Source: Mycoemilia scoparia (taxonomy: Eukaryota; Kickxellomycota; Kickxellomycetes; Kickxellales; Kickxellaceae). From it: a DNA stretch of 37,331 bases. The position numbers and the translations under genes were made by a program. The stretch covers positions 1 through 37,331 of the forward strand of contig JANBPU010000159.1 of the NCBI GenBank assembly GCA_027575805.1. Direction: 5' to 3'. The notes beneath the pieces are model-generated. The model did not search any database. It saw nothing but the letters and a program-made list of their open reading frames with translations, and was not told the origin of the DNA. This document shows, piece after piece, positions 28,739 through 29,785 of this stretch. Each line of letters starts with the position of its first letter. The first letter of the stretch is position 1.

Positions 28739-29785
28739 TTATCTATAGTAGAGTTCTAGGCTCATCCCATCATTAATTTCATCTAGCATTTCAATAATAG
28801 ATTACATTAGTAGCCGGCCTTTTAGCATCTCAATAAATAGCATTTAGGAATTGTTAAAAATAAATGCCTGTCATTACTTACAGTCACTAAGTCTTATATG
28901 ATCTTTAAATGTTGTGTACCTATAGAAAAATTGTTAATAAAATAAGGTTAAATTTAAAAACGTTGTTTTAACAGTGACGAAAGGATGAAAAGTGCTATAT
29001 AACCCTTACCATTTCTTTAAAACAATTTTTTGTGGGTGAGTTCCAGTCTGGGCAGCTATGAGCTTTTTCAAGTCGCCAACGAGGTCATCAGGGCTGTTTT
29101 TTAGGTCAAATAAACATGAAGAGCCAAATTTCGGTTAATAGATTTCAGTATGCACTAAAGCTCTGTGCTCTCCATTCTGTCATTAGCTGAATAGCTATGG
29201 TCATCTTTATACTTACTCGCATTTAACACGAATCTTTTTACCTAGCCGGTCATCACAAAGAACCCCAATAATGCTTCCGGATCCACTTGCCTCATGAACA
29301 GCCGACCCCATATTCTCATTTCCACCATTCTTGTCTTCACCTTTGTCTTCCTTCTTCTTGTCCTTTTTATTATCTCTTCGTCCCTTATCTTTTCGAAGCC
29401 ATGAGTCAACTCCTTTACTTTTAGATTCACTGTGCTCTCTTTCTTCGTCTTCCTTAATTTCGCCATCTGAGATCTCATCTCTATCTCTTCTATTTTTATT
29501 TCTAGATTCACTGTGTCTGGATCTCCCGTGATGATAACGGCTTGACAAGTCAGGATATCTGTCATAATCTCTACTATAGCGGTCCCTTCGTGAACTGCGA
29601 TGTCTACTGCCTCTTTCTAGAGATGGAGAACGTGACCTTGAGCGATAGTTTTTCCTATGGTGCCGACTTTTGTGGTGATATCTTTCCCGAGACAAGGATT
29701 TGGGCTCTCTAGAATTTGATCTGTCACGTCTGCTCTGTCTCTGTGGGCTTGGACTTGGCCTTCCTTCACGAGACCTATTACTCAT
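28739..29785 (-). CDS. RS-domain protein fused to a complete Hub1/UBL5 ubiquitin-like domain
   Basis: Exons in transcript order are 29785-29217, 29093-29010, 28919-28882 and 28782-28739. Introns are 123, 90 and 99 bp, with GTAAGT, GTAAGG and GTAAGT donors; all joins are in frame and give 244 aa. Residues 1-100 are an Arg/Ser-rich domain with many RS/SR dipeptides (RSRSRSPS, SRRDRYSRD). Residues 100-160 are a Lys/Asp/Glu-rich linker. Residues 171-244 are a full Hub1: VLCDDRLGKKIRVKC, DDLVGDLKKLIAAQTGT, KIVLKKW, FKDHIRLSDYEI and the C-terminal LELYY plus one Arg. The acidic residue that binds HIND peptides in yeast Hub1 (D22) corresponds to D193. Hub1 acts in pre-mRNA splicing by non-covalent binding to Snu66 and has no di-glycine tail; RS domains also belong to splicing factors. 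Hub1 is normally a free 73-aa protein. An internal Met159 could permit a short form. Confidence 0.93.

Follow-up and report, generated by a model that had tools for sequence, protein, structure and literature searches.

The window, the whole 37,331-nucleotide stretch of the Mycoemilia scoparia genome analysed here, carries on its minus strand (29785-28739) a predicted gene, RS-Hub1, in which an Arg/Ser-rich region and a linker precede a Hub1 domain. Its four exons give 735 bp and 244 aa (Table 1), and its introns (123, 90 and 99 bp) all have GTAAG at the 5' end and AG at the 3' end. The coordinates, frame and splice sites of this gene model bear out the original prediction of a four-exon gene with a 569-bp first exon. 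The further claim that this is one gene, and not two joined together, also holds: the RS and Hub1 parts are read in a single frame within the same exon, which leaves no splice to be made between them. We place the start Met of the open frame at 29785 because an in-frame TAA stands just upstream, and the neighbouring upstream ORF on the same strand ends at 30078, with an in-frame stop between it and RS-Hub1. Met159, previously singled out as an internal Met, is indeed the only one ahead of the Hub1 domain. From this reading frame we infer that RS-Hub1 is made as one protein. Elsewhere in the window we found two adjoining ORFs, each with a CrcB/fluoride-channel domain (PF02537) and probably forming one two-domain gene (7580-8910, plus strand); a 2283-aa ORF with a Med12 domain (PF09497, 59.1 bits), apparently without introns (15399-22250, minus strand); a 710-aa ORF of glycosyl hydrolase family 81 (24078-26210, minus strand); and a 620-aa ORF that matches PF17667, a family of fungal protein kinases (68 bits; 34221-36083, minus strand).

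Table 1. Features of the RS-Hub1 gene and its 5' flank, with positions in the window.
Feature	Position	Strand	Remarks
TATAAA	29850..29855	-	about 70 nt 5' of the first ATG; consensus match only
In-frame TAA stop	29792..29794	-	9 nt (start) / 6 nt (end) before the first ATG
Exon 1	29217..29785	-	569 bp; encodes the RS region, the linker and the beginning of Hub1
RS-rich region	29486..29785	-	aa 1-100; composition and shuffle control
GVDSWLRK linker motif	29390..29413	-	aa 125-132; identical in Spiromyces aspiralis P0001
Internal Met159	29309..29311	-	sole Met after residue 1 and ahead of the Hub1 domain, which follows 13 residues on
Hub1 domain start in exon 1, IIGVLCDDRLGKKIRVKC..	29217..29272	-	Met1 to Ile, Glu3 to Gly, Asn7 to Asp
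Exon 2	29010..29093	-	84 bp; Hub1, includes Asp22 (aa 193)
Exon 3	28882..28919	-	38 bp; Hub1
Exon 4	28739..28782	-	44 bp; end of Hub1 (..LELYYR) and TAA

The first 100 residues of RS-Hub1 consist of 29% Arg and 23% Ser and contain 20 RS/SR dipeptides. When the first 510 nt of the gene were shuffled 2000 times with dinucleotide composition preserved, none of the shuffles (0/2000) stayed open for 170 codons, and the observed 20 RS/SR per 100 aa compares with a maximum of 11 and a mean of 2.7 in the shuffled sequences. When the whole window was scanned in six frames for 100-aa stretches holding at least 10 RS/SR, every one of the 101 overlapping stretches found lay in the frame of RS-Hub1 exon 1. 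The long RS/SR-rich stretch is that of an RS-domain (SR-related) protein; a Pfam scan found no RRM in RS-Hub1, which is therefore not a classical SR protein. RS-Hub1 may be tethered through RS-RS contacts and may come under the control of SR kinases. The linker that follows (aa 101-165) is rich in Lys, Glu and Asp, and has diverged from that of Spiromyces aspiralis except for the 8-residue run GVDSWLRK; no shared run of 8 arose in 500 shuffles (0/500). The idea that this motif is a pseudo-HIND was rejected, as it has only Leu-Arg in common with HIND and is unfolded and undocked in the AlphaFold2 model of the Spiromyces protein, judged by confidence and secondary structure only.

Hub1 has been described as a free protein that acts non-covalently. 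In RS-Hub1 the whole 73-residue domain occupies aa 172-244 and is 74% identical to human UBL5 (E 1.4e-34), with ubiquitin as the next group (1e-20 and weaker). The Pfam ubiquitin model scores 22.3 bits, under its cut-off of 25.4, and the Hub1 entries P0001, P0029, P0036, P0047, P0061 and P0065 likewise fall under this cut-off. The protein ends in LELYYR and a stop, that is in Tyr-Tyr plus one residue, without di-Gly. Position 22 of the domain is Asp, the residue expected of a HIND-binding Hub1. The two residues that contact the exon in human are only partly present, with Lys13 kept and Asn7 replaced by Asp, and this pair is a human structural contact rather than a defining Hub1 feature in the literature consulted. 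Among 181 parsed Hub1 sequences, RS-Hub1 included, position 3 is Glu in 176 (Gly in RS-Hub1; four of the deviants are broken gene models) and position 7 is Asn in 179 (Asp in RS-Hub1, and otherwise in P0096, Pyropia). The Spiromyces domain, which keeps both Glu3 and Asn7, is identical to that of RS-Hub1 at 67 of 73 residues, and four of the six differences fall within the first seven. Since position 1 is Ile, the domain could not start at its own Met. By sequence, RS-Hub1 is thus a Hub1-domain protein and not a free Hub1 of about 73 aa: it is a predicted 244-aa fusion with its own Hub1 Met lost. Either the tail took over part of the contact at the altered N-terminal end of the domain, or this end has relaxed.

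The assembly (21,160,063 bases, 466 contigs) was searched with the Hub1 part of RS-Hub1 and with human UBL5. Neither query revealed a second Hub1 in these 21,160,063 bases; both matched the RS-Hub1 gene only, exon by exon, and the stand-alone Hub1 gene that would have spoken against the original prediction was thus not found in the assembly with two different Hub1 queries. By their matches, three more spliceosome genes that we looked for (Snu66, Prp38 and MFAP1) occur once each.

HIND shifts between Snu66 and Prp38 among lineages, and lies in Prp38 in plants and C. elegans. The original prediction had suggested testing Snu66 and Prp38 of this organism for a HIND motif, and one was found in Snu66 but none over the Pfam cut-off at the Prp38 locus. 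Mycoemilia Snu66 (L011:1324-3582), whose best match is Spiromyces Snu66 (P0203), begins MTEEKSMSLEETNKLRISLGLKPL and carries a canonical HIND (44.6 bits, Pfam cut-off 25), so that a HIND partner exists in the same genome as RS-Hub1. It is the only HIND over the cut-off in the genome; the second best match reaches 15.1 bits, under the cut-off, and is a weak HIND-like match in a 342-aa open frame (G000:C55:8486-8530, minus strand, L019). Such weak sub-cut-off matches also occur in 3 of 14 bacterial control genomes. A HIND in Prp38 of the kind known from plants and C. elegans was rejected, as none was found at the Prp38 locus, either over the Pfam cut-off or by eye in three frames, and no RS-rich stretch was found around Prp38 (at most 3 RS/SR in 60 aa). 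MFAP1 (L015), counted on the alignment with human, keeps the loop RSGRTK (human 385-390) and an Arg in the place of human Arg358; Lys340 is replaced by Arg and Tyr391 by Trp, and Tyr335 is not kept. The docking parts for Hub1 are present in the genome, and docking itself probably takes place.

We also compared the segment ahead of HIND in 16 Snu66 proteins (the Mycoemilia protein and 15 matches), a set in which Mucoromycotina and Tremellomycetes are not represented. Mycoemilia Snu66 starts almost at HIND, with 0 RS/SR ahead of it, and Spiromyces Snu66 is likewise without an RS domain there. All 8 fungal proteins (named or own), which include chytrids and Ustilago, have 0-1 RS/SR ahead of HIND, and at least 6 were seen in 4 of the 16, namely two animals and two further entries. 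Human Snu66/SART1 is reported to have an RS domain at aa 41-108, directly before HIND at 117-135 (PMC4141198). The comparison suggests that an RS tail was relocated across the Hub1-HIND interface. A strict exchange of the RS domain, with either Snu66 or Hub1 as its carrier, was not established, as fungi whose Hub1 form was not seen are also RS-less on Snu66.

The RS-Hub1 fusion is, judging from database proteins, not peculiar to Mycoemilia scoparia. Two protein searches with Hub1 admitted only entries of 0.55-1.75 times the query length (134-427 aa and about 110-352 aa), which excluded free Hub1 from both, and the second returned the best 120 of 513; the counts are accordingly the share of listed extensions rich in RS, and not the frequency of Hub1 fusion per group. 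Relatives of RS-Hub1, which the earlier work had proposed to look for, exist in Mucoromycotina (P0036, P0120 and others) and in Tremellomycetes (P0058-P0062, P0065), and like RS-Hub1 they have an RS-rich N-terminus and a C-terminal Hub1. Their annotations read 'ubiquitin-like modifier HUB1', Hub1 or ubiquitin-like protein. Among the matches listed, a segment of 60 aa with at least 6 RS/SR, our measure of an RS-rich stretch, preceded Hub1 in 19 of the 25 named Mucoromycotina entries and in 7 of 7 named Tremellomycetes entries (six Kwoniella and one Apiotrichum, which we count as Tremellomycetes). The same 25 listed Mucoromycotina entries begin with ML[KRQ]FKKH in 20 cases, and at Hub1 position 1 have Leu in 21 and Met in 3 (Umbelopsis), with 1 not parsed; translation of Hub1 from its own Met is excluded in the 21 because of this Leu. 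For the six listed Mucoromycotina entries in which no RS stretch was found we assume that the gene models contain frame errors, given that P0134 and P0137 retain the MLxFKKH start and that P0124 and P0169 share their genus with P0127, in which the RS stretch is present. Of the other parsed entries with an extension of at least 30 aa among the matches listed, 2 of 116 reach 6 RS/SR in 60 aa (P0054 and the Umbelopsis-like P0136). The Hub1 extensions of Neolecta, Pneumocystis, Linnemannia and Physocladia hold 1-2 RS/SR in total, and some of them look like untranslated sequence.

Within the admitted lengths, the closest protein to the Hub1 part is that of Spiromyces aspiralis (Kickxellales; 92% identity, 95% query coverage). 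This entry (P0001) is truncated at the N-terminus, shows at most 3 RS/SR in 60 aa, and keeps Met at Hub1 position 1. In its AlphaFold2 model, which is of a single protein and not of a complex, the Hub1 blocks have means of 91-96 and the extension is mostly below 50, as predicted for a disordered tail on a folded Hub1 domain. The N-terminal motifs differ between the groups, with ML[KRQ]FKKH in Mucoromycotina, MPRSPSPRR..KELSFYKK in Tremellomycetes and the linker GVDSWLRK in Mycoemilia and Spiromyces; as to one ancient or several fusions, the 73 residues of Hub1 are too few for a tree. Other architectures were also seen. In P0054 (148 aa) a strongly RS start is followed by a Hub1 with IRLQKWY in place of the IVLKKWY type; this Hub1 resembles plant or algal forms, and P0054 is perhaps a non-fungal, independent RS-Hub1 fusion. 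P0067 (318 aa) is a PRP38-Hub1 fusion (PF03371 at 15-170, 186 bits; Hub1 at the end), and P0097 (167 aa), without a Pfam match, resembles by eye the C-terminal half of a P0067-like protein.

UBL5 and MFAP1 of the human B complex are reported to form a channel that receives the 3' end of the 5' exon; in it, UBL5 Asn7 and Lys13 touch the exon backbone at -3 and -4, the positions that pair with U5 loop 1, and UBL5 Asp22 meets MFAP1 Arg358 (PMC10943123). A Snu66 helix had previously been assigned to the channel (PMC6274647), and this account corrects that assignment. Asp22 of UBL5 is also described as binding Arg127 of the Snu66 HIND, with Met1 part of the contact (PMC4141198), so a tail fused at position 1 leaves Hub1 near the HIND interface. 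Once UBL5 and MFAP1 leave, SRRM2/Cwc21 takes over the 5' exon, and S. pombe without Hub1 mis-uses 5' splice sites (the former reported and the latter cited in PMC10943123). Furthermore, RS domains are reported to promote pairing of pre-mRNA with U5 and U6 snRNAs (PMC1952110), and C. elegans UBL-5 associates with the SR proteins RSP-1, -2, -3 and -6 (PMC7615767). We propose that RS-Hub1, as the sole detected Hub1 of Mycoemilia, delivers its RS tail to the B complex at the channel for the 5' exon, where the tail aids 5' splice-site pairing; to this reading we assign a probability of roughly 0.5. The Hub1 domain would dock by its Asp22 face on Snu66 (through HIND) and on MFAP1, at a site adjoining the 5' exon where this is paired to U5 loop 1. 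Attached as it is to the N-terminal end of Hub1, the disordered tail would in this way be carried to the 5' exon and 5' splice site. Being arginine-rich and phosphorylatable, it could steady the pairing of pre-mRNA (5' exon with U5, 5' splice site with U6) and contact exon-bound SR proteins, and the outcome would be the use of weak 5' splice sites. We infer every aspect of the role given here to the tail.

This reading is favoured because the RS and Hub1 frame, in a single exon, lies far beyond the shuffles, and because the architecture recurs in the listed Mucoromycotina and Tremellomycetes with a conserved ML[KRQ]FKKH start in the former. It is further favoured by the loss of Hub1's own Met in Mycoemilia and most listed Mucoromycotina, by the GVDSWLRK common to Mycoemilia and Spiromyces, by the absence of another Hub1 from the assembly alongside a Snu66 HIND and the MFAP1 Arg, by the Spiromyces model with its predicted disordered tail on a folded Hub1, and by the published channel with its Asp22-Arg358 contact and the reported links of RS domains and SR proteins to pairing and to UBL-5. 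Against it stand the changes at the near-invariant Glu3 and Asn7 (to Gly and Asp), unlike Spiromyces, where Asp7 would set a negative charge against the 5' exon backbone; the differences from human at the three MFAP1 positions 335, 340 and 391; the RS-poor truncated Spiromyces entry; the 6 of 25 listed Mucoromycotina without an RS stretch; and the RS-poor extensions of Neolecta, Pneumocystis, Linnemannia and Physocladia.

RS tails are signals for speckle and nuclear targeting, and the RS part of RS-Hub1 could serve localisation only, sending Hub1 to speckles or the nucleus and retaining there a protein small enough to leak out; it would then do nothing at the splice site itself. Human Hub1 deficient in HIND binding is reported still to reach speckles, so that a route other than Snu66 exists, but human free Hub1 reaches them without any RS tail, which would make the tail redundant (PMC4141198); on balance we consider this explanation possible and rather unlikely. 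Still less probable, in our view, is an inert or cleaved tail, with mature Hub1 arising from Met159 or by proteolysis and acting as an ordinary free Hub1. The position of Met159 shortly ahead of the domain, the Lys/Glu/Asp-rich linker and the Met retained at position 1 in Spiromyces would fit such an origin, whereas the open and highly RS-biased frame of the tail, the TATAAA and in-frame stop just 5' of the first ATG, and the Hub1 Met lost in Mycoemilia and in 21 of the 25 named Mucoromycotina listed argue against it, as does the ML[KRQ]FKKH start kept in 20 of these 25, which an unused segment would leave unexplained. A decaying or specialised copy, with the real free Hub1 missing from an assembly of unstated completeness, could account for the clustering of differences from Spiromyces in the first seven residues, two of them near-invariant; we hold it to be very improbable given that every splice site, the reading frame and the remainder of the domain are intact, that 67 of 73 residues equal those of Spiromyces, and that Snu66, Prp38 and MFAP1 are each present in the assembly. 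Finally, although the gene model is predicted, an artefact in which the RS frame is untranslated or part of another gene has scarcely any probability, as no splice is needed to join RS and Hub1 in their exon, the upstream ORF ends before an in-frame stop, and independent fungi show the same order of RS and then Hub1.

Returning to the RS tail at the 5' exon, a broader and more speculative idea, which we regard as doubtful, is that the spliceosome requires an RS tail at the Hub1/5' exon site, and that this domain is a movable module whose carrier varies by lineage, so that a swap across the binding interface keeps the geometry. If true, animals would carry RS on Snu66 before HIND, and Mucoromycotina, Kickxellales-like fungi and Tremellomycetes would carry it on Hub1, in parallel with the shift of HIND between Snu66 and Prp38; PRP38-Hub1 fusions would be the extreme, with a covalent link in place of docking. 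Fungi with an RS-built Hub1 would offer a natural experiment on RS domains at the 5' splice site, and where the tail would lie within the B complex is predictable, since its attachment point is atomically known from human structures. The 'Hub1' of Mucoromycotina and some basidiomycetes should not be equated with the yeast protein. In the literature searched (titles, abstracts and exact phrases) we found no report of an RS-Hub1 fusion, and the Hub1 review PMC8431670 does not mention fusion, fused, N-terminal, fungi or RS domain. The architecture is real, conserved in kind and present in databases under the name HUB1, and as far as we have seen it is unremarked in the literature searched.

Compared with known systems, RS-Hub1 has in common with free Hub1/UBL5 of human and yeast (PDB 6ahd, 4pyu, 3plu) the whole domain, the end in YY plus one residue and Asp22. 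It differs from them in having Hub1 as its C-terminal third, in its RS tail and in the changed Met1, Glu3 and Asn7. P0067 likewise places Hub1 at the C-terminus of a spliceosomal module, although its partner is Prp38 and not an RS domain. Animal Snu66/SART1 resembles RS-Hub1 in setting an RS domain beside the Hub1-HIND contact, with the difference that the carrier is Snu66 in human and Hub1 in Mycoemilia. SRRM2 is an RS-rich protein, and SRRM2/Cwc21 lies at the 5' exon channel, as we propose for RS-Hub1; however, the two are not homologous, and SRRM2 acts at the next stage.
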